Virus record (IMG/VR): IMGVR_UViG_3300042141_000168
Coordinates: 1-25,749 of that record
Direction: 5' to 3' (one strand)
DNA from: a virus
DNA: 25,749 nt
The notes under the pieces were generated by a model. It was given only the letters and a program-made list of their open reading frames with translations. It had not been told where the DNA came from and made no database searches. Shown here one piece after another: positions 1 through 25,749 of the stretch. Positions within the stretch are counted from its first letter, which is position 1; every line of letters begins with the position of its first letter. Both the position numbers and the translations under genes were made by a program.

Positions 1-157
1 CTGGAACTACCAGAGCAGTAGCTGTTTAGGTGTGGTCGGCCTAACGGGTCATCAACCTGCTCGGCTTATCCGAGATTCCGGATAAGCATCCTTATTTCAA
101 CGAGTTGCGACGGCGGGGGTCTCCCCTGCCACCTTTGCGCCGAGCGAGCACCATTAT
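1..157. other. Structured non-coding stretch with several hairpins
   Basis: No convincing gene is visible here. One frame is open from base 2 to a TAA at 83-85 and could be the last 27 codons of a gene entering from the left, but it shows no recognisable motif. Inverted repeats are dense. GCTTATCCG (64-72) pairs perfectly with CGGATAAGC (79-87). CTCGG (60-64) can instead pair with CCGAG (70-74), which would exclude the first stem. GGCGGGG (112-118) pairs with CCCC and GCC at 123-130 across a GTCT loop. No T-run follows any of these, so none is a clear terminator. The stretch could be a structured RNA, a bidirectional terminator without U-tract, or part of the adjacent repeat region. Confidence 0.3.
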
Positions 158-227: not shown

Positions 228-528
228 TAGGGAACCTCATAGGGAACTGGGGAACCACTCGAAAAAGTCCCCTATTTTGTAAGTCGTTGAAAAACAGAAT
301 CTCCGCTGGGGTTAGGGAACTTAGGGAACTATTTTTAAATTATAAATAAAAATATATTATATATAGCCAGTAGCCTATTACCCTACGTATGGGCTGTGTA
401 TAGCCGGAGGTTTTCAACAAGGTTCCCTATTCCCTAAGTTCCCTAAATTCCGTGTAAGTTTCTTCCCAGTTGTGTTTTACAAAATAGGGAACCATTTTTG
501 AGGTCCCCTAAATTTCCAAGGTTCCCTC
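228..528. repeat. Array of TAGGGAAC octamers in two inverted arms (candidate origin or master operator)
   Basis: The octamer TAGGGAAC or a one-base variant occurs about a dozen times. Left-arm copies are at 228-235, 240-247, 249-255 (GGGGAAC), 313-320 and 322-329. Right-arm copies are mostly inverted: 422-429, 430-436, 438-445, 503-510 and 521-528, with one forward copy at 485-492. The arms are imperfect mirror images around about position 379. TTAGGGAACTTAGGGAA at 312-328 is exactly complementary to 430-446, and 270-282 is exactly complementary to 477-489. A roughly 35-bp AT-only stretch (331-366) sits on one side of the dyad, and CCCTACGTATGGG lies near the centre. Iterons flanking an AT-rich unwinding segment are typical of replication origins; binding of a repressor is the alternative. 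The arrangement is visible directly; the function is inferred. Confidence 0.7.
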
Positions 529-589: not shown

Positions 590-629
590 AAAAAGCTAAG
601 GCTCACAGAGAGTGGTATCCCTGTGAGCC
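590..629 (-). terminator. Rho-independent terminator of the leftward operon
   Basis: GGCTCACAG (600-608) and CTGTGAGCC (621-629) form a perfect 9-bp stem with a 12-nt loop. Read leftward, the stem is followed by TTAGCTTTTT (590-599), a fair U-tract. It lies 27 bp beyond the stop of the last leftward gene, as expected for the terminator of the whole leftward block. The T-run is interrupted, so efficiency is uncertain. Confidence 0.7.
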
Positions 630-3881: not shown

Positions 3882-4131
3882 GAACGCGGGAGTGTTTTCT
3901 CCAACCCAAGCCCCCCCCCCCGGTGTTGAACGCCATGTATTCCTGTGCTTCCTCATAAGTCATTTCTTGCTGTGTGAGGATTGAGAGGCACAGCCCCCGG
4001 TCGTAGACGGCAAATGGCTTTCCGAACTGCCTCGCTATACCGACGAAAGCTCGCTCAAAACCATCCGCCAGTGTAATTTCTTCGTCTTCTGTAAGACACT
4101 CTTCTATTGTTTCTTGTATTAGGGTTTTCAT
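3859..4131 (-). CDS. Upstream part of a frameshifted gene: small phage protein
   Basis: A 90-codon frame starting at ATG 4131, which overlaps the stop of the PrimPol-helicase gene. Residues about 20-70 (ADGFERAFVGIARQFGKPF, AVYDRGLCLSIL, EMTYEEAQEYMAFN) look like a compact small phage domain in which a YEEAxEYxxFN motif is normally followed by a G-A-x-V-G-E-x-TP stretch. Here that stretch lies in the neighbouring frame, immediately after an 11-G run on the coding strand. As read, the frame instead ends in an unrelated tail (LGWRKHSRVHVLRKNG). This strongly suggests that the natural product continues in the other frame. Function unknown. Confidence 0.65.
   Translation of the reverse strand: MKTLIQETIEECLTEDEEITLADGFERAFVGIARQFGKPFAVYDRGLCLSILTQQEMTYEEAQEYMAFNTGGGGLGWRKHSRVHVLRKNG
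3911..3921. repeat. Homopolymer run of 11 C (G on coding strand) at a frame junction
   Basis: Eleven consecutive C, read as GGGGGGGGGGG on the coding strand. Deleting one base, or an equivalent slip, fuses the 3859-4131 and 3639-3956 frames into one open frame with a plausible motif (NTGGGAWVGENTP). Sequencing error, programmed slippage and phase variation are all compatible. Confidence 0.9.
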
Positions 4132-6335
4132 AAATCGTGGGGCATTATGGAGTAGCGGGTTGATTCAACTTTGGATTTCGTTGAGTTGTGGATTATGTGA
4201 ACCCCCGTCCCAGAGGTCTTCGCCATTTTGGAAAGGCGCATTCCGATGGAGCGCACCGTCATGGCTTGGATCAGCCCCTTAACAGCAGGGTGGGAGTTGA
4301 TTATGCTCGTCAGAGACGCCGCCGTTCCGACCCACGGCATTTTTTTCTGCTTAAGTTCGACCATGTCGTTGTCGGTCTCCCAAAGAATATCCAGAACCCC
4401 GGAAAGGTCAGAGTCGTAGGAGTTAGCTACCGCGTTTCTGCGAACAACCGGGTGGATGTAGTTCTGCATCCCCCAGCGGTGGTTCGTGTTGACCAAGCTC
4501 TTCAAAGGCTTCCAGTGGAGCAGCCAGTTCAGGAAGAAAGGGCTCTCTTGGCGCAGGGTGCGCTCGGTGACAGCGTTTCCTTGGAATACAAACGGCTTGG
4601 AGTTCAACCCGAACACCATGAGTTTGTCTTCGATGTTCCGGTCTAAGTCGGGAATCATCAACAAGCTGATTGGGTCTTCGTTCAGCGTCACCATGAGCCG
4701 CCCGTTGAATGGGACCATCTGGCGATCCACGAACTTTGGGTGGTAAGCCACCATCGGGTTTGCGATGAGGCGCTTGACGCGTTCGCTGAATTTCTGGTGC
4801 TGGACACGGTCGCTGGCAGCTAACGAGTCGTCTATGTGCCAGTGCCCGACTTCCATAAGTTCTTTGCAGAAAGACTCACCAGCTACGAGGTAGTCTCCAG
4901 CTTCCGAGCCTCCGCCCATAAGCAGAGGAATCCAGAAGGCGTTCATCAGCGTTTTTCCTCGGTTGGTTCCGCCCACCATGAAGATAGCGTGACCGCGATT
5001 GAGTGACCCGCTTCTGGCTCCTTCATAAAACAGCTTCAACCATGCAAGAAGGTAGACAAGCTGCCGTTTTGGCGTGAACATCGACCCCAGCCACGACGCG
5101 ATCCACGGGAACCCTTGTCCCCATGCTGGATTCGGGGTTGTTGTGTCTGGCTCCATCACTTTGACACGAGCTAGGTTCAAGAAACGCTTGCCCGCTATAG
5201 GCAATACCTCGCGGGTGTCGTAAACGACAGGGACAGCACCATCGAGCACCTTGCTTTGTTGAATATGCAGTAGCGCATTTTCAACTTCAGACGGGCTGTT
5301 TCCCTGCCCCTTGGTGCGGCTTAACCCCTGCGCCCCGGCGAGATACAGGATCAGATCGTCTTTAGGCTGAGCCCTCCACGCCCCATCCGGCCACTTCCGG
5401 TAGTATCCAACACGGGGTATGTAATAGATGGCTTCGGTAGCAGCACCGATCTTGTTCTCTTCGAACTTCCGTGTGAAATCCTTCCCCAGTATTTCAGCGT
5501 AGGATTTAAACAGCTTGTCCTCGGCACTGAAGCAGTAGACGCCCCACGGGCGGTAAACCGTGGACTTAGGGTTCTTCGCGTCCGGATGCCATACGGCGGG
5601 GCCTAGAACTCCGTCCTCGAAAGGGACATCCTTCGGCCATTTTCCGGGGAATTTGGCTTCGATCTCTTTAAAGACCAAGTCCATCGGGATTTCCGTGCTG
5701 CCTTTTGGTTGCTTGCTTTTGGATACTGAACGAACAGCTTTGAAAAACGTCCCTTGAACTTCAGACGAGGGCAGGGGGGCTTTATTGAAGCGCTCCCATA
5801 CCCCGCCGATGTCGTAGTAAGTCGCTGGCTTCTTGTAGGCGGCTTCGTCAAGCCCAGCCAATAGAAGCGGGAGCTTGAGGAGCTTCTTCAATGCTTCCAG
5901 CGTCTCCAATATGAACGCATCTCCTGATTCGCCCACGTTCAAAGGGTTCTCAAACTCCCAAACCAAACGATGGTTCCCACTGGGCGTGATGACCCCCCAC
6001 TGCGGCATGAGAGCCGGGGTATCTTTCAAAATCTGCTCCACGTTGTCCCTGATTTGCGACATGGTCCCCGGGGACGGGGCGTCGTAGTCTGCTACTACCC
6101 CGTGCATCCTCCACGGAGGGTTCTCGGCGCGTGTGTTAATCCGCTGCTTTGTGTTTAAACCCTCCCAAAGTGAGAAAACACAAGTGTCCGTTTTCGGGTC
6201 CGCGAGCCATTTCCTGCGGGTTTCCTTGTCCATACCAGCGGGTTCGTTTGTTTGGACGCGCTGCCCCTCTGCCCCCGGGTTCGAGAAAGTGTAGACGTCT
6301 TGCGACGATAAGTTTTTTAAAGCGAGATAGGTCAT
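4128..6335 (-). CDS. Primase-polymerase / SF3 helicase (replication protein)
   Basis: A 735-residue replication protein. The N-terminal part (residues about 1-190) resembles an archaeo-eukaryotic primase: VVADYDA supplies the D83-x-D85 metal-binding pair and PSGNHRLVWEF supplies the SGxH motif (119-122). The C-terminal half is a superfamily 3 type ATPase: Walker A GGTNRGKT (455-462), Walker B-like HWHIDD (D502, D503) and a sensor Asn in MVTLNEDP (N552). The middle (about 240-440) is a linker of the kind found in D5-like or DUF5906-like proteins. It would prime and unwind phage DNA at the origin. It is transcribed after DNA polymerase and coupled to its neighbours by ATGA overlaps. Motif assignment is by eye; the primase third acidic residue is not identified with confidence. 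Confidence 0.85.
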   Translation of the reverse strand: MTYLALKNLSSQDVYTFSNPGAEGQRVQTNEPAGMDKETRRKWLADPKTDTCVFSLWEGLNTKQRINTRAENPPWRMHGVVADYDAPSPGTMSQIRDNVEQILKDTPALMPQWGVITPSGNHRLVWEFENPLNVGESGDAFILETLEALKKLLKLPLLLAGLDEAAYKKPATYYDIGGVWERFNKAPLPSSEVQGTFFKAVRSVSKSKQPKGSTEIPMDLVFKEIEAKFPGKWPKDVPFEDGVLGPAVWHPDAKNPKSTVYRPWGVYCFSAEDKLFKSYAEILGKDFTRKFEENKIGAATEAIYYIPRVGYYRKWPDGAWRAQPKDDLILYLAGAQGLSRTKGQGNSPSEVENALLHIQQSKVLDGAVPVVYDTREVLPIAGKRFLNLARVKVMEPDTTTPNPAWGQGFPWIASWLGSMFTPKRQLVYLLAWLKLFYEGARSGSLNRGHAIFMVGGTNRGKTLMNAFWIPLLMGGGSEAGDYLVAGESFCKELMEVGHWHIDDSLAASDRVQHQKFSERVKRLIANPMVAYHPKFVDRQMVPFNGRLMVTLNEDPISLLMIPDLDRNIEDKLMVFGLNSKPFVFQGNAVTERTLRQESPFFLNWLLHWKPLKSLVNTNHRWGMQNYIHPVVRRNAVANSYDSDLSGVLDILWETDNDMVELKQKKMPWVGTAASLTSIINSHPAVKGLIQAMTVRSIGMRLSKMAKTSGTGVHIIHNSTKSKVESTRYSIMPHDL

Positions 6336-12974: not shown

Positions 12975-14246
12975 TTATTTCTCTCTTTTGTTGTTGTTGT
13001 TGTTGTTGCTAACCTGAGCATTCCGCTCGGCTATTAGGTTTTTCCTACGTTTTTTAGGTCTAAGGACCACTGGGGCGTAGGTTTTGTTTTCTGGGGGAAA
13101 GATGTCAAACCACGCTTCTGCTTCTTCGCGGGAGACAAGTTTAAGGTAATTTGTTTCCAGCATAGTCAGGCTGTGCCCCGCCGTTTTGGAAGTTCTAGGC
13201 GGGTCGCGGTGTAGTTCGAGGTGGCACGAAACAAAAGTGTGGCGAAGGGCGTTCTGCTCACGAACTACACCAGCTTGCTTGCAGAGCTTCTGTAAATGGG
13301 CGTAGAGGTTGTAGAATTGCTCTTCGGGGTATGTTATAAAATCATCGGGTTCCCCTCTTAAATAGCTTACCCAAGCTCGCAAGTTGTCGGAGACTTCCGC
13401 GATTCGGCGGCGTCCCGTCTTTGTTATATTGGGGCCGAGAATGATCCCGTCATCGCGGACATCCTTCCATTTCAACCGTTGGGTTTCCGCAGAACGGCAT
13501 CCCGCAAACGCGCTCACCACCAAAAAAGAAGCCACTCGTTTGTTTGTGCACTCATTTAACAAATTTCTCATGCTATGTGATGATACCGTGCAAGGTTCGA
13601 CAATAGAAATCTTCGGGCGTTCAGTTTTTTGTGCTTCCGTAAGGCCCGCAGCGAGATAACCCTTTCTTTGGGCAAACGCGAAAAGAGAGCATATACTGAC
13701 GCGGTGGTTCAACCTCGTTTTAGGGTTTGGAAAATTTTTTACGAGATACTCGTCGATGTCGGTCGCCTTCACAGCGCCAAGAGTCCCGCGAAATGTTTTA
13801 CAGAATTTTTCCAAGTGCAACCTTATCGAACTTTTGTGGCGGGGGCTATTTTCTTGTCTTGACTCCAAAAACAAATCCCGTGCTTTGGAAACGCTGATAG
13901 ACTGGCTCGCAATATGGTCTTGGTAGAATTTGACAAGCTCGGCCAAGTTGACGCCGCGCAAAGTTGTGTCAGCTTCGACATATTCTCTCATCCGCTCGGC
14001 GGTGAGATTTTCCACAATTTTCGTTCCTTGCTCAAACGCTGCCACAATTTTTTTGACGAGACTTTTCAAGTCGCTTTCATCGCTGATTACTTTTCTTTGT
14101 CGTGCGATTCCATCGTGCCAACACAGCGTCCAAGCGTTTCTCTTAGACGATGGGTAGACGTCCAATTTTCGCCCTCCAATTTTTATTTTGAACTTGGCGT
14201 TTTTTGCCAACGCCTCATTCAGCTTTGCTTCGATTTTTTCGGTCAT
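12975..14246 (-). CDS. int: Tyrosine-family site-specific integrase
   Basis: A 423-residue tyrosine recombinase. There is an N-terminal arm-binding-like region (1-105) and a core-binding SAM-like domain (about 113-200: SVSKARDLFLESRQ to LFAFAQRKG). The catalytic domain follows with R251 (FAGCRSAETQRLKW), K276 (ITKTGRRRIAEV), R335 in NALRHTF, H358 (AGHSLTMLETNY) and the nucleophile Y367. The usual HxxR histidine is Asn332 here, as in some related bacterial integrases. The C-terminus ends in six Asn residues from a repeat tract. It begins the leftward block and faces the terminase across a 235-bp control region that probably contains attP. It would integrate and, with an excisionase, excise the phage. 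Confidence 0.95.
   Translation of the reverse strand: MTEKIEAKLNEALAKNAKFKIKIGGRKLDVYPSSKRNAWTLCWHDGIARQRKVISDESDLKSLVKKIVAAFEQGTKIVENLTAERMREYVEADTTLRGVNLAELVKFYQDHIASQSISVSKARDLFLESRQENSPRHKSSIRLHLEKFCKTFRGTLGAVKATDIDEYLVKNFPNPKTRLNHRVSICSLFAFAQRKGYLAAGLTEAQKTERPKISIVEPCTVSSHSMRNLLNECTNKRVASFLVVSAFAGCRSAETQRLKWKDVRDDGIILGPNITKTGRRRIAEVSDNLRAWVSYLRGEPDDFITYPEEQFYNLYAHLQKLCKQAGVVREQNALRHTFVSCHLELHRDPPRTSKTAGHSLTMLETNYLKLVSREEAEAWFDIFPPENKTYAPVVLRPKKRRKNLIAERNAQVSNNNNNNKREK
12988..13008. repeat. (TTG)7 trinucleotide repeat at the integrase C-terminus
   Basis: Seven tandem TTG units, read on the coding strand as AAC and encoding the poly-Asn end of the integrase, ten codons or fewer before the stop. 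The tract is followed at once by the start region of the RHH gene. It is slip-prone, but changes by whole units would keep the frame. Confidence 0.95.
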
Positions 14247-14481: not shown

Positions 14482-16371
14482 ATGGCAAATAAAAAAACAA
14501 GGGCCGAAAAGAAACCCGTTAGTCCTGTAACGGCCCCACAAACTCCAACACCGGGAAATTTTTTTTATGGGCGTGACTGGGGGGAGATGAGCGAACTCCA
14601 GATTGAGTTGGTGTGTTTTCTAACCGGGCTGTCTGTGGCAGACGGCGGGCTCGGTAAGTCTGAACACTTCTGGAATGTCGTTGCGATGCTGTGGCCCATC
14701 ACAAGTCGAAAGCCTTTTATTCGGAACCCGTGGGGCGAGCGGATGGTGGATGAGTGGTGCAAGCACAACTTCAGCTCTGTGAGCGGCTGCGCGAGCAGTA
14801 GCAAGACTGATACGGCTGCTGTGTGGGGCATCGTGAATTGGCTCGCGGCCCCCCTTGATACGAAGGTTCTTTGCACTAGCACCACTCTGCGCGAGAGCCG
14901 CAAGCGTATCTGGGGCTCTATCGAAGATTATTGGAACGCGCTGCCAGATGGCGTCCGCATGGTGGGCAAGCTCGCTTCGTCGTTCGGTCTTATACGGCTC
15001 AGTGAGGCTATGGGCGTGCGGGGCAGCGAAAAGTGCGGCATCGAATTGATACCGGGAGAAAAGAAAAGGGAGAAAGAGGCGACGGGAAAAATAATTGGTA
15101 TCAAAAACAAGAGGGTCATCCTCATTGCTGATGAGCTTCCAGAGCTGTCGCCTGCGATCATGCAAGCGGCGATCTCTAACTTAACTGCAAACCCGTATTG
15201 CCAAGCCATCGGCCTTGGGAACCCTGCGAGCTACTACGACGCGCATGGCATCTTTGCCACTCCCAAAGCGGGTTGGAAGAGCATCTCGCCGGAAGACTTC
15301 GAGTGGGAGACGATTTACGGGCACGCGATCCGATTTGACGCGACACTTTCGCCAAATGTCGTGAATAACGATGACTCACTTTACCCGTGGCTTCCGACTG
15401 TGAGGCGGCTGGAGGAGGCAAAGAAAAACATGGGGGAAGACTCGTTCGGCTTCTGGCGGCAGTGGCGTGGGTATTTCCCCCCAGAGGGCGGCGAGCAAAC
15501 CGTCTTCAGCGAGACGGACATTATATTTTTCGGATCGGAACGGACGGATGTGGAGTGGGCGTCGCCGCCGACGTCCGTTGTAGGGACCGACCCCGGTTTT
15601 ACAAACGAGGGGGACCGCACCGTGGCTTACTTCGGGCTGTTTGGCGAGGAGATGCACACTGGCCTGAGCGTTCTTCTTTTGACGGGCTATGAAATTTTGA
15701 AAGACGACATGACCGACAAAACTACTCCTCGCAATTTTCAGATTGCCCGGGCGTTTAAGCGGGAAAGCGAGCGCCGAGGAGCCACGGCGAGACACGCAGG
15801 CGTGGACGTGAGTGGGTCCCCTGCGTTCGGCGACATCGTCGCCCGCGAGTGGAGTTCGGAGGTTTACCGTTCGCAGTTCGGGGGAAAGTCCACAATGAGC
15901 CGCGTGGGCGAGGACCGGGCGATGGCAAAAGACCGTTACGCAAACCGAGTAACAGAGCTGTGGTTCGAGGCGCGAAATTACATGGAGTTCGGGCAGATTC
16001 GCGGGGTCGAACCCGATCTAGCCCGTGAGCTGACCGCCCGCAGATACACTACTGGAGCCACTGCGGGGAGCTTAGACGCTACGGTAGCCATCGAGCCCAA
16101 GAAGAAAATGAAAGGCAGGACAGGGGCTTCCCCAGACATAGCGGATGCGTTCCTTGTATTATTCGACCTTTGCCGCACCCGTCTTGGGTTTCGAGCGCAA
16201 GCGGGGGTGAAAGCAGGGAAACAGAAGTCCGAGAACTGGCAGCAGTTCAGAAAAAAGAAATTGAAACTCGGGGGCGTCGTGCCGAAAAAAACTTTCAAAA
16301 CTTTGATCTACGAAGGCAGCGGGCCGACATTGCGGATGGGGGCTGCGAGAGGTTTAAATTTAATTCGTTGA
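14482..16371 (+). CDS. terL: Terminase large subunit
   Basis: A 629-residue packaging motor. The ATPase domain has a deviant Walker A, SGCASSSKTD (K108, T109), a Walker B VILIADE (D217, E218) and the NPAS segment after it. The RNase H-like nuclease domain shows three acidic clusters: VVGTDPGF (D370), AGVDVSG (D442) and SPDIADAF (D552, D555). The protein recognises and cuts concatemeric phage DNA and drives it into the prohead through the portal. It is the first rightward gene, and no small terminase precedes it here. The start ATG 14482 lacks a clear Shine-Dalgarno. The basic, low-complexity N-terminus (KKTRAEKKPVSPVTAPQ) is probably disordered. Confidence 0.95.
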   Translation: MANKKTRAEKKPVSPVTAPQTPTPGNFFYGRDWGEMSELQIELVCFLTGLSVADGGLGKSEHFWNVVAMLWPITSRKPFIRNPWGERMVDEWCKHNFSSVSGCASSSKTDTAAVWGIVNWLAAPLDTKVLCTSTTLRESRKRIWGSIEDYWNALPDGVRMVGKLASSFGLIRLSEAMGVRGSEKCGIELIPGEKKREKEATGKIIGIKNKRVILIADELPELSPAIMQAAISNLTANPYCQAIGLGNPASYYDAHGIFATPKAGWKSISPEDFEWETIYGHAIRFDATLSPNVVNNDDSLYPWLPTVRRLEEAKKNMGEDSFGFWRQWRGYFPPEGGEQTVFSETDIIFFGSERTDVEWASPPTSVVGTDPGFTNEGDRTVAYFGLFGEEMHTGLSVLLLTGYEILKDDMTDKTTPRNFQIARAFKRESERRGATARHAGVDVSGSPAFGDIVAREWSSEVYRSQFGGKSTMSRVGEDRAMAKDRYANRVTELWFEARNYMEFGQIRGVEPDLARELTARRYTTGATAGSLDATVAIEPKKKMKGRTGASPDIADAFLVLFDLCRTRLGFRAQAGVKAGKQKSENWQQFRKKKLKLGGVVPKKTFKTLIYEGSGPTLRMGAARGLNLIR

Positions 16372-21748: not shown

Positions 21749-21781
21749 GAGCGGCAGTGGGAACTAACCCCGCTGCCGCTC
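21749..21781 (+). terminator. Strong stem-loop after the capsid gene
   Basis: GAGCGGCAG (21749-21757) pairs with CTGCCGCTC (21773-21781), and the stem continues through a G-U and three G-C pairs to about 13 bp with a 7-nt loop. It is followed by TTGG and the next gene's ribosome-binding site, not a T-run, so it is more likely an mRNA-processing, stabilising or partial attenuation element than a full terminator. Confidence 0.55.
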
Positions 21782-21795
21782 TCTTGGAGACTGAT

Positions 21796-23271
21796 ATGCC
21801 TATAGGATCAATCGAACTTTCAAATCGGAATGTAGCGCCCGCTCCCCCATTAGCTGGTAAAAAACTTTTTTTAAACGCTAGTGGTGATTTAAAACTCCTC
21901 GCACCAGACGGCAGCGTGACTGCGATTGGCGGCGGGTCAGGGGGAAGTGGCACTGACGGTCGTGAAGTGGAGTTCCAAAAAAGCGCTACTCACATTCAAT
22001 GGCGGTATGTAGGCGATCTCACATGGACCGATCTGGTTGCGCTGAACGATCTAAAAGGCGCGAACGGAAACGACGGAGCGGCGGGGGCTGACGGAAGTGA
22101 AGTAGAGCTTCAAAAAAGCGCTACTCACATTCAATGGCGGTATGTCGGCGGAACCTCATGGACTAACCTTGTTGCGCTGAACGATCTGAAGGGCTCTGAC
22201 GGGGCTGATGGAAGTGACGGAGCTGCCGGGGCTGACGGAAGTGAAATAGAGCTTCAAAAGGGAACGACTCATATCCAGTGGCGGTATGTCGGCGGCACTA
22301 CATGGACCAATCTGGTTCTGCTGGATGATCTAAAGGGCGCTGCGGGGGCTAACGGAGTCAATGGTCGCGGGTATAACCTCACATTTACTTCTCTTAATAT
22401 AGATGTATCAATGGGGGGTAAAACACTTATCTTGGGTAGTATGGCCCAACCCAGCAATTCGCCTAATATGGTCGCTGCGCTTGCAGCGGCTTATTCTACT
22501 GGTAATCGAGTTAGGTTGTCCGCAAACTCAAGCACTTGGATAGAGGGGCAAATGACAATAATCTCGCCTTCAGGGATGTATGGGTGGGGGCTAACTGTCA
22601 CAAAAATATCCGGCAGCGGAACTTACTCGACTTGGAATGTTTCGATTGCTGGAGAGCCGGGGTTGGACGGCGGCGTGACGAGCTACGCCGACCTCACTAA
22701 TGTCCCGAGCACATTTGCTCCCAGCTCGCACCCGCACGCCATCGGAGATGTCACCGGGCTCCAAACCGCCCTCGACGACAAACAAGCCGCAGGCAGCTAC
22801 GCCACGCTGGTCGGCGGCGTCGTGCCAGCCTCGCAGTTGCCGAGCTTCGTCGACGATGTCGTCGAGTTCGCAAACCTCGCCGCATTCCCAGCCACCGGAG
22901 AGAGCGGCAAGCTCTATGTAGCGCTTAACACTGGCAAGGCCTACCGCTGGAGCGGCTCCACCTACATCGAAATTGTCGCCGCTCCCGGCTCGACCGACGC
23001 AGTGCCGGAAGGCTCCGTAAACAAATACTACACCGACGCACGCGCAGCCGCAGCCGCCCCAGTGCAAAAAGTCGCCGGTCGCACGGGCGAAATCGTCATT
23101 GGCATCAGCGATGTCACAAATCTCCAGACATCCCTCGACGCCAAACAAATCAAAACCGTCTACGCCGATTCCGCCCCCTCGCACGCAGCCGGGCTCGAGT
23201 GGGTGGATACCACCGAGCTTCGCGCCTACCGCAGCTATAACAACCAATGGGTTGAAATCGACCGCGCTTAA
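21796..23271 (+). CDS. Collagen-like and repeat-containing fibre protein
   Basis: 491 residues. The start ATG 21796 has GGAG six bases upstream and is preferred over the GTG at 21757, which lies in the stem-loop. An N-terminal segment ends in a Gly/Ser linker. Three copies of a module follow (GREVEFQKSATHIQWRYVG type, ending DLxxLNDLKG) separated by short collagen-like Gly-X-Y stretches (GANGNDGAAGADG). A beta-rich middle region comes next. The C-terminal third has motifs common in phage fibres: GVTSYADLTNVPSTF, SGKLYVALNTGKAYRWSG and VPEGSVNKYYTDARA. The last 35 residues resemble the N-terminal domain of the next gene. Probably a trimeric fibre on the virion, either tail or capsid. Confidence 0.82.
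   Translation: MPIGSIELSNRNVAPAPPLAGKKLFLNASGDLKLLAPDGSVTAIGGGSGGSGTDGREVEFQKSATHIQWRYVGDLTWTDLVALNDLKGANGNDGAAGADGSEVELQKSATHIQWRYVGGTSWTNLVALNDLKGSDGADGSDGAAGADGSEIELQKGTTHIQWRYVGGTTWTNLVLLDDLKGAAGANGVNGRGYNLTFTSLNIDVSMGGKTLILGSMAQPSNSPNMVAALAAAYSTGNRVRLSANSSTWIEGQMTIISPSGMYGWGLTVTKISGSGTYSTWNVSIAGEPGLDGGVTSYADLTNVPSTFAPSSHPHAIGDVTGLQTALDDKQAAGSYATLVGGVVPASQLPSFVDDVVEFANLAAFPATGESGKLYVALNTGKAYRWSGSTYIEIVAAPGSTDAVPEGSVNKYYTDARAAAAAPVQKVAGRTGEIVIGISDVTNLQTSLDAKQIKTVYADSAPSHAAGLEWVDTTELRAYRSYNNQWVEIDRA
21964..22341 (+). repeat. Three tandem coding repeats in the first fibre gene
   Basis: Copies begin near 21964, 22099 and 22243 (spacing 135 and 144 bp). Each encodes E-V-E-x-Q-K-S-x-T-H-I-Q-W-R-Y-V-G, then a W-T-x-L segment. 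The first two share a run of identical bases over the ATHIQWRYV codons, so duplication looks recent; the third has diverged. Confidence 0.85.
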
Positions 23272-23277
23272 AGTTTT

Positions 23278-25218
23278 ATGGCACTTGTTTTCCCAAACAA
23301 CCCGACAGTTGGGCAGACGCACACCAATGCCGGACGCGCATGGCAGTGGACAGGGTCTCGCTGGCAACGCTTTGACCTGGCTGGTGTAATGGTTTCGGAT
23401 ACAGCCCCAACTAACCCCGTCCCCGGAATGCGCTGGATTCACGAAGACCAAGGCCGCGCTTACGAGTATCTTGATGACACATGGGTCGAACTCGGCGGCG
23501 GTGGCGGCGGCTCTGGCGGCGGCGTGACCAGTTACAATCAACTGACAGACAAGCCAACGCTGGGGACTGCCGCCGCAACCGATGCTACGGCTTACGCCAC
23601 GGCTTCGCAGGGGGCGAAAGCCGATTCTGCTCTCCAAGCGTCTGCACTCACGCCATACCGCACTTCAGCGGCTCAAGACCTAATCGATGCTGGCAAAGCC
23701 TCTTTAACCCACGATCACGACAGCCGCTACTATACCGAGGCGGAAATCGACACCAAGCTCGCTGCAAAGCAAGATGCTGGGAGTTACGCCACAGCCGCGC
23801 AAGGTGTTAAAGCTGATTCTGCGTTGCAAGCCTCTGCCCTCACTCCTTACCGCACAAGTGCCGCTCAAGACACGATCGACGCGGGCAAAGCGGCTTCCAG
23901 CCACACTCACCCGCTCAGCCAACTCACTCAAAGCGGAGCGACCACAAACCAAGTCCCGACTTGGAACGGCACAGCATGGGTTCCTTCGACACCTGCAAGC
24001 GGTGGGGGTAATTTTGTTGTGAACGGGGGCGGTGTCGCTTCGATACAAATGGTGTCGAGTGAGCCAAATTCTCCGACAACAAACACGCTTTACGCTGTTG
24101 TTCCACCAAGCGGAGTAAATAATGAACTTTGGCTTGGGGTGGATAGGATTTTCCCTGCTGCCCCTTCAATTCCTAATTGGATGAATGTCGGGCCAACTCA
24201 CTGGAGTTCGTATCAGTATTGGATACGCAGAACAACAAAAACGGCCTCCGTTGCAAACACGGTTTTTACGCCTTCCGTAAATTTTAATGGTTTTATTGGT
24301 GGAGTGCTGATGACGGATGGCAGGGTATTCTGTATCCCTCATACAGCCACTTCAGCAGCCATATACAACCCAAATACCGACACAATTTCTACAATTCCCT
24401 TTTGGTCAAACCCTTATTTTTCAGGCGGCGTGTTGCTTCGCGATGGAAGGGTTTTTTGCATTCCTTCTTATGGTGGAACAGCAAGAATCTACAACCCTGC
24501 GAATGATACAATAACGGATGTAAACGGTTTTCCGGGCGGAAACCATATTTCAGGCGGGGTTGTGCTTTCTGATGGTAGAGTGTTTTGTGTGCCGAATTTT
24601 GGAACTACAGCCCGAATCTACGACCCAACTACGAACACCATCACAACGCCGAATGGCACATACCCAACAGGCCAGCCCTTTTCTAATGGAGTTCTACTCC
24701 CTGATGGGCGAGTGTTTTGCGTTCCTTTCAATAGCACCACGGCAAGAATCTACGACCCAATTACAGATACGGTCACTACTCCAAACGGCACATACCCCGG
24801 CAGTAAGGCTTTTACAGGAGGTGTTTTACTCCCTGATGGGCGAGTGTTTTGCGTTCCAGCAAATAGTGTAACTCCAAGAATCTACGACCCTGCCACGGAT
24901 ACACTCACAACGCCAAATGTAAATATAGGTGGATCGGAAGCGTTTTTTGGAGCTGTGCTTTTGCCAAATGGGAATGTTTTTTGCGTCCCTCGCATGGTGA
25001 GTTCGGCAGCAATTTACAACCCCGCGAACAACCAAGTTAGCTATACAGAAAGCCTTGGCGAAGAACAAAACGGATATAACCGTTTTTTCGGAGGAGTTTT
25101 ACTTTTAGACGGTAGAGTATTTTGTGTCCCTAAAAGTAATTCTACTGCGAGAATTTACGGAGGAGGGCAAGCGTTTAATCAAAATATAGCATTATCAAGT
25201 TACTACAATAAGATATGA
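23278..25218 (+). CDS. Fibre protein with a Kelch-like beta-propeller tip
   Basis: 646 residues. The N-terminal domain (1-70: [20 protein letters not shown], then [20 protein letters not shown]) is the anchor type found in many phage fibres. Next come a Gly-rich hinge, two copies of a helical-looking module ([20 protein letters not shown]), and a spacer ([20 protein letters not shown]). The C-terminal part carries seven consecutive repeats of about 44 residues, each with F-x-G-G-V-L-L-x-D-G-R-V-F-C-[IV]-P, then A-R-I-Y-[ND]-P. This is the signature of a galactose-oxidase/Kelch-like propeller, with one Cys per blade. The gene ends in an ATGA overlap with the next fibre gene. The propeller is a candidate receptor-binding tip. 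Confidence 0.85.
23614..23892 (+). repeat. Duplicated 87-bp module in the second fibre gene
   Basis: Copies at 23614-23700 and 23806-23892 encode [20 protein letters not shown] followed by D-x-I-D-A-G-K-A. The copies differ at many third positions, so the protein repeat is older than the DNA repeats elsewhere in the gene. Confidence 0.85.
23899..24008 (+). repeat. 110-bp direct repeat, copy 1 (second fibre gene)
   Basis: Nearly identical to 25413-25522 in the next gene, offset 1514 bp, including a central block of about 50 bases without differences. It encodes [19 protein letters not shown] and the following [16 protein letters not shown]. The reading frame matches in both copies. Confidence 0.9.
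24298..25149 (+). repeat. Seven-fold coding repeat (beta-propeller blades)
   Basis: The Gly-Gly at the start of each blade lies at 24298, 24424, 24553, 24685, 24817, 24949 and 25090, spacing 126, 129, 132, 132, 132 and 141 bp. Blades 4 and 5 share long identical stretches around the [11 protein letters not shown] codons. The near-constant period and DNA similarity suggest growth by tandem duplication. Confidence 0.9.
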
Positions 25219-25749
25219 TTAACTTTCCTGACTCGCCAACTCTTAACCAAACCTTTACCTCCTCTGGGAAAACTTGGCAGTGGAACGGCTTAGCTTGGCA
25301 AGCCGAAGGAGGCTCCGGTGGCGGCGGTGGCGCACCCACCGCTCACGCCAGCACACACGCCACAGGTGGTCTTGATCCGCTAACTCCCGCGCAGATTGGT
25401 GCGGCAGCGTCAAGCCACACCCACCCTCTCAGCCAACTCACTCAAAGCGGAGCGACCACAAACCAAGTCCCGACTTGGAACGGGACGGCGTGGGTTCCTT
25501 CGACCCCTGCAAGCGGTGGGGGGGCGAAGTCCCCGCAAATTGACAGATTCGTAGGTTCTGGCACATGGACAAAACCAGTAGGCGCAAAACAAGTTTTATT
25601 TGAATGCGTTGCAGGCGGTGGCGGTGGTGGTGCTGGAATAAAAGTTGCTGCTGCTACAATTTCTTCTGGCGGTGCTGCTGGAGGTTCTGGTGGATATTCC
25701 CGCGCAACAATCAATGCTGCTGATTTAACAGATGCTACCTATACAGTAA
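25215..25749 (+). CDS. Third fibre protein, glycine-rich (partial, cut by window end)
   Basis: Starts at ATG 25215, overlapping the TGA of the previous gene, and stays open for 178 codons to the window edge. The N-terminus ([19 protein letters not shown], then QWNGLAWQ) is a short version of the anchor domain in the previous fibre. A Gly-rich hinge and the same [19 protein letters not shown] spacer follow. Downstream is [20 protein letters not shown], then E-C-V-A and a poly-Gly stretch, typical of the glycine-rich tip domains of phage fibres. It is therefore a paralogue of the previous gene with a different tip. Its end, and any further tips, lie outside the window. Confidence 0.85.
25413..25522 (+). 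repeat. 110-bp direct repeat, copy 2 (third fibre gene)
   Basis: Partner of 23899-24008. The differences are mostly silent or near the ends. Recombination between the two would fuse the N-terminus of the second fibre to the glycine-rich tip of the third, in frame, deleting the propeller. Confidence 0.9.

Follow-up and report, generated by a model that had tools for sequence, protein, structure and literature searches.

The 25,749-bp window analysed here, which is the whole of IMG/VR virus record IMGVR_UViG_3300042141_000168 (classed linear), carries at positions 228-528 a non-coding, mirrored array of short repeats (iterons) that is likely, judging from sequence comparison, to be a phage replication origin bound by the PrimPol-SF3 helicase encoded by the same phage. 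A preliminary description of the window had proposed an origin at this place, and the proposal is supported by the conservation of the array and by its position 3' of PrimPol in distant relatives. The exact octamer TAGGGAAC occurs seven times in the window, always within 228-492, compared with a mean of 0.47 and a largest count of 3 in 100 shuffles. With up to one mismatch allowed, 12 octamers fall within 228-528, against 0.35 per kb in the rest of the window. Their strand order is + + + - + + in the left arm and - - - + - - in the right, forming six pairs mirrored about position 376.5, and only 0.5% of random placements were equally good. In 60 dinucleotide shuffles, no mirrored 7-mer array was as good as the best one in the window. 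These results bear out the dozen octamers in two mirror-image arms given in the preliminary description, as well as its exact inverted repeats of 17 and 13 bp, the shorter of which is the core of a 21-bp, 86% repeat. The AT-only stretch that it placed at 331-366 is real but lies one base to the left, and no other 36-mer of the window is all AT. The inner octamers of the left arm, at 313 and 322, are spaced by 9 bp, with the G-rich strand facing the centre. The cluster, the mirror order and the AT-only segment all exceed chance expectation, and therefore support the origin reading. A search of Rfam gave no match.

The array is conserved in a close relative, L002, a 33-kb record with a PrimPol 88% identical to that of the window and an equivalent array at 15600-15905. 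The centre and the AT-rich segment are almost unchanged and the octamer is retained, whereas the iteron spacing is 8 instead of 9 bp and the arm spacers have diverged; persistence of the octamer despite these changes therefore fits selection on the octamer itself. A PrimPol profile search of viral contigs recovered 47 loci, with identities of 30–39% between the PrimPols of distant lineages. Mirrored arrays lie 3' of PrimPol in L003, L027 and L048, and for each of them none of 60 shuffles was as good. The array word is AAGTGGGTT/AAGTGGATT in L003, GGTGATGGT in L027 and its near-copies, and GGTAGGGG in L048. Fewer copies of the L003-clade word (AAGTGGRTT/AAGTGTATT) are present in L023, L024 and G006, and L029 and L068 have arms of the GGTGGT type. 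The octamer by lineage is TAGGGAAC, AAGTGGRTT, GGTGATGGT, GGTGGTRGT or GGTAGGGG, and this variation tracks the PrimPol tree, in which TAGGGAAC and AAGTGGRTT each correspond to one clade. The preliminary description had looked to related genomes for the octamer: L002 keeps both the octamer and the AT segment, and the distant relatives have mirrored arrays with words of their own. Repeats in L033, L040, L060, L061 and L067 were rejected as arrays, being of low complexity and mostly coding, and tblastn of the window, L048 and L027 PrimPols against phage genomes gave no match.

The distance from array to PrimPol is about 0.5 kb or less in L027, L029 and L068 (in L068 the array starts at most ~30 bp from the PrimPol stop), and 1–3.5 kb in L003, L023, L024, L048 and L002. 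In the window it is 3.6 kb, and the array follows the initiator gene at the far end of its operon. In the sequences with clear arms (window, L002, L027, L029, L048), most octamers have their G-rich strand facing the centre. The exact consensus for integration host factor (IHF), WATCAANNNNTTR, is found inside the arrays of L003 (two sites), L027, L029 and L048, on the PrimPol strand and right of centre, and these whole loci contain only one to three consensus matches each. The window has a near-match, TTTCAACGACTTA, in the corresponding place, making DNA bending by IHF a candidate role at the array.

To identify proteins that accompany the array, 20 window proteins were compared with the distant array-bearing loci. 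Homologues of PrimPol, PolA, the SSB-like protein, SNF2-Cas4, RuvC and the integrase (Int) are present in most of these loci, and gp180 and gp62 have homologues in one each. The XRE and ribbon-helix-helix (RHH) proteins, the sigma factor and the small operon proteins had no detectable homologue across them. The preliminary description had named as possible binders the PrimPol-helicase or one of the small DNA-binding proteins; the former is best supported, whereas the lack of detected homologues makes the small proteins, the XRE, RHH and sigma proteins among them, unlikely binders. The helix-turn-helix (HTH) protein encoded convergently with the replication operon was rejected as a binder on the same ground. 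Pfam recognised only DUF5906 in the window PrimPol, in which motifs resembling those of archaeo-eukaryotic primases were read by eye. The HBD profile PF22763 gave no match up to E 0.1, a profile miss that leaves the domain possible, and a PDB sequence search with a three-protein profile gave none. An AlphaFold model of the protein has a mean predicted local distance difference test (pLDDT) score of 83.5. Its residues ~668-730, modelled with lower confidence (~70), form a strand-helix-helix-helix-strand-strand unit typical of a winged helix. The helicase part of the model matches the C-terminal region of NrS-1 polymerase (Z 20.6 over 289 residues, root-mean-square deviation 3.8) and the SaPI5 primase-helicase (Z 15.3), and poxvirus D5-type helicases also match. 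Because of the shared-protein survey and the predicted fold, PrimPol is the leading candidate for the array binder. We propose that the PrimPol-SF3 helicase would use its C-terminal winged helix to bind the octamers, probably with one hexamer per arm and the two hexamers facing each other. Binding from both sides, together with a bend at the IHF-like site, could melt the AT-only 36 bp lying between the inner iterons. Next, the helicase would load onto the opened strands, the PrimPol domain would prime, and the phage PolA would extend the primers.

Table 1. Features of the array, its proposed initiator and its surroundings in the window
Feature	Position	Strand	Remarks
Iteron array, putative replication origin	228-528	none	12 TAGGGAAC-like octamers in two mirrored arms
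Left arm	228-329	+	octamers at 228, 240, 248, 313, 322 (+) and 267 (-)
Right arm, mirror of left arm	422-528	-	octamers at 422, 429, 438, 503, 521 (-) and 485 (+)
17-bp exact inverted repeat, left half	312-328	none	partner 430-446
17-bp exact inverted repeat, right half	430-446	none	partner 312-328
21-bp inverted repeat, left half	262-282	none	13-bp exact core 270-282 (pairs with 477-489)
21-bp inverted repeat, right half	477-497	none	partner 262-282
AT-only 36-bp segment, putative melting site	330-365	none	nearly unchanged in L002
GC-richer central segment between arms	366-421	none	conserved in L002
TTTCAACGACTTA, IHF-like site	279-291	-	one mismatch from WATCAANNNNTTR; place matches exact sites of L003, L027, L029, L048
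Terminator-like hairpin closing replication operon	600-629	-	array beyond its end
Last codons of gene convergent with replication operon	1-21	+	L002 match read by eye
PrimPol-SF3 helicase, proposed initiator	4128-6335	-	weak DUF5906 match

The array lies beyond the terminator of the replication operon, in agreement with the preliminary description. Because the leftward operon ends at 600-629 and the rightward gene at 1-21, the array sits between convergent gene ends, as it also does in L002, L003, L023 and L024. The convergent gene is complete in L002 (16133-16627, minus strand), where it encodes the HTH protein. This location bears on the alternative raised in the preliminary description, a large operator for a transcription repressor such as the XRE, RHH or convergent HTH protein. 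Operators can take the form of palindromic arrays, and genes for small DNA-binding proteins lie close by, but convergent gene ends are an unlikely place for one, there is no sigma-70-type promoter match in 1-800, and these three proteins have no detectable homologue in the distant array-bearing relatives; we regard an operator as very improbable. Elsewhere in the window, the phage encodes its own PolA, an integrase and a tail protein (21757-23271). The integrase gene (12975-14246) is the first of the replication operon, ~12 kb from the array. The same operon includes a gene for a sigma factor resembling the extracytoplasmic function type (Sigma70_r2 and r4; 1958-2449), shared among the tested relatives only with L002. 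Two neighbouring tail-fibre-like genes (23278-25218 and 25215-25749) have a common repeated linker.

DNA-only scans, for TAGGGAAC pairs and for mirrored GGGAAC arms, with two permuted words as controls, revealed similar repeats beside other primase-helicases. The TAGGGAAC-pair scan matched staphylococcal pathogenicity islands (SaPIs), L014 (PF16560 SaPI-family gene) and L020 (DUF927 Rep with a Cch-type HTH), as well as L012 (NrS-1-type protein) and L016 and its kin (Prim-Pol/VapE proteins); the repeats are close to the gene's 3' end or at it. Scans for mirrored GGGAAC matched 13 and 6 contigs, one of the 6 being that of L002 itself. In most of these matches the arms are at the 3' end of a ~980-aa Toprim/DUF7146 gene or 10–45 bp from a Toprim/AAA_25 gene. 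The two permuted-word control scans gave no matches, and neither did the exact P4-type GGTGAAC mirrored pattern. In L106 (7436-10372) and in similar genes of L102-L112, a mirrored GGGAAC array occupies the last 220 bp of the ~980-aa Toprim/DUF7146 frame, and the origin-like repeats of these primase genes overlap coding sequence. A non-coding region of L019 (1664-2040) combines two iteron words, with mirrored TAGGGAACA arms as well as GTGAACA repeats flanking an AT-rich stretch. Other words were read by eye at the same place in AAA_25-type relatives, namely GGGGACA in Salicola phage CGphi29, GGTACA in Idiomarinaceae phage 1N2-2 and GGTTCA in Alteromonas phage PB15, suggesting that in these phages the place is constant and the word drifts, as in the window PrimPol family. 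It is conceivable, though we hold this only tentatively, that GGGAAC, repeated at the 3' end of gene or operon, is an 'origin word' common to non-orthologous families (PrimPol-DUF5906, NrS-1-type, Prim-Pol-VapE, DUF927 SaPI Rep, Toprim-DUF7146 and Toprim-AAA_25), either through a transferable winged-helix/iteron module or through convergence on a recognition code that drifts by lineage.

Several observations weigh against an origin at the array. Individually, the weaker arrays (L023, L024, L029, L068, G006) fail the exact 7-mer shuffle test, and they were judged partly by clade and place. One clade of 14 sampled PrimPol relatives (L031-L067; for example L043, L049, L059 and L060) has no detectable array. 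About nine small genes occupy the 3.6-kb gap between PrimPol and the array in the window, and the scan word GGGAAC was picked because of the window array. Along the L002 record, cumulative GC skew reaches its peak within the array (at 24159; array at 24054-24357), but this peak is a maximum, which convergent genes would be expected to give and a bidirectional origin whose leading strands are G-rich would not. The skew check suggested in the preliminary description is uninformative, because convergent genes explain its sign. The distance from PrimPol in the window would also suit a control or enhancer locus that the initiator binds without starting replication there, like P4 crr, which acts in copy control and handcuffing. 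P4 alpha binds one iteron type at separate ori1 and crr loci. However, searches of the window, the full L002 record and G011 turned up no further array of this word, and the AT-only segment between the inner arms suits a melting site, so that we consider a control locus quite unlikely.

A phage attachment site (attP) must be taken seriously because the presence of Int tracks that of the array: most of the array-bearing records tested have a tyrosine integrase, whereas none was detected in those array-less clade members that were tested, which also lack RuvC. The octamers would then be arm-type sites for integrase and the conserved centre the crossover core, with IHF bending the DNA as in lambda attP; the IHF-like sites and inverted arm sites are compatible with this. 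Because the array-less relatives form one clade, however, the correlation may reflect a single event. G006 (68 kb, with ends overlapping by 123 bp) has a weaker array but no integrase detectable by PF00589, phrog_1 or tblastn, the window array and int are 12 kb apart, at opposite ends of the operon, and the word also occurs at the 3' end of unrelated primase-helicases, one SaPI Rep included. A search for integrated prophages combining an array with a visible junction gave none, yielding only short or array-less contigs from metagenome-assembled genomes, plus L068, which is too short to show a junction. We conclude that an attachment site is unlikely, and favour a replication origin.

The preliminary description did not recognise the design, but two iteron sets around an AT-rich segment are the layout of SaPI and phage-inducible chromosomal island (PICI) origins, always with both sets flanking the AT-rich region 3' of rep, and a survey found this layout common to no other known bacterial replicon (PMC6092414). 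Iteron binding by SaPI Rep is through the C-terminal domain and apparently involves two hexamers, and the same goes for Cch2 (PMC7581432). The mirrored iterons around an AT-rich segment, 3' of the initiator, liken the window to SaPIbov1, SaPI5 and EcCICFT073 (pri-rep-ori), and the SaPI L020 has the same TAGGGAAC octamer directly 3' of its DUF927 rep. According to Ubeda and colleagues, both arms of the SaPIbov1 origin are reportedly required for melting. The window initiator is likewise an SF3 helicase with a C-terminal DNA-binding domain, as far as predicted fold and secondary structure indicate, but it is a PrimPol-SF3 fusion of another family, its array is 3.6 kb from its gene, and the IHF-like site is additional. 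The P4 system also has a primase-helicase initiator, similar octamers (GGTGAACA-type) in both orientations and an AT-rich segment. P4 alpha has a Toprim primase, whereas the window protein matched only DUF5906 in Pfam; P4 also has a separate crr locus, and its octamer is different.

The NrS-1 phage protein, the best structural match, likewise joins a PrimPol to a ring-forming C-terminal helicase region, and in L012 (NrS-1-type HBD) TAGGGAAC repeats lie 3' of the gene. NrS-1 polymerase recognises an 8-nt priming site with only two genome copies (PMC7102993), whereas the window has an iteron array, and its protein has no HBD-profile match. At the SCCmec Cch2 origin, a self-loading helicase uses its C-terminal domain to bind iterons 3' of the operon (PMC7581432). 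This downstream position is shared with the window, but the iterons of Cch2 are three 5-nt direct repeats, mirrored arms are not reported as needed, and CCPol-MP primes. What appears to be new is that PrimPol-PolA phages have a SaPI/PICI-type layout and, more tentatively, that GGGAAC iterons serve several primase-helicase families that are not orthologous. Mirrored iterons sought 3' of a primase-helicase could serve as an origin-finding rule for phages, and natural pairs of initiator and iteron could be used to decode winged-helix specificity. By analogy, the window origin may function like a PICI origin, yet PICIs are satellites and the window element is not a PICI, because it is a phage with a tail protein gene and its own PolA, besides an integrase.
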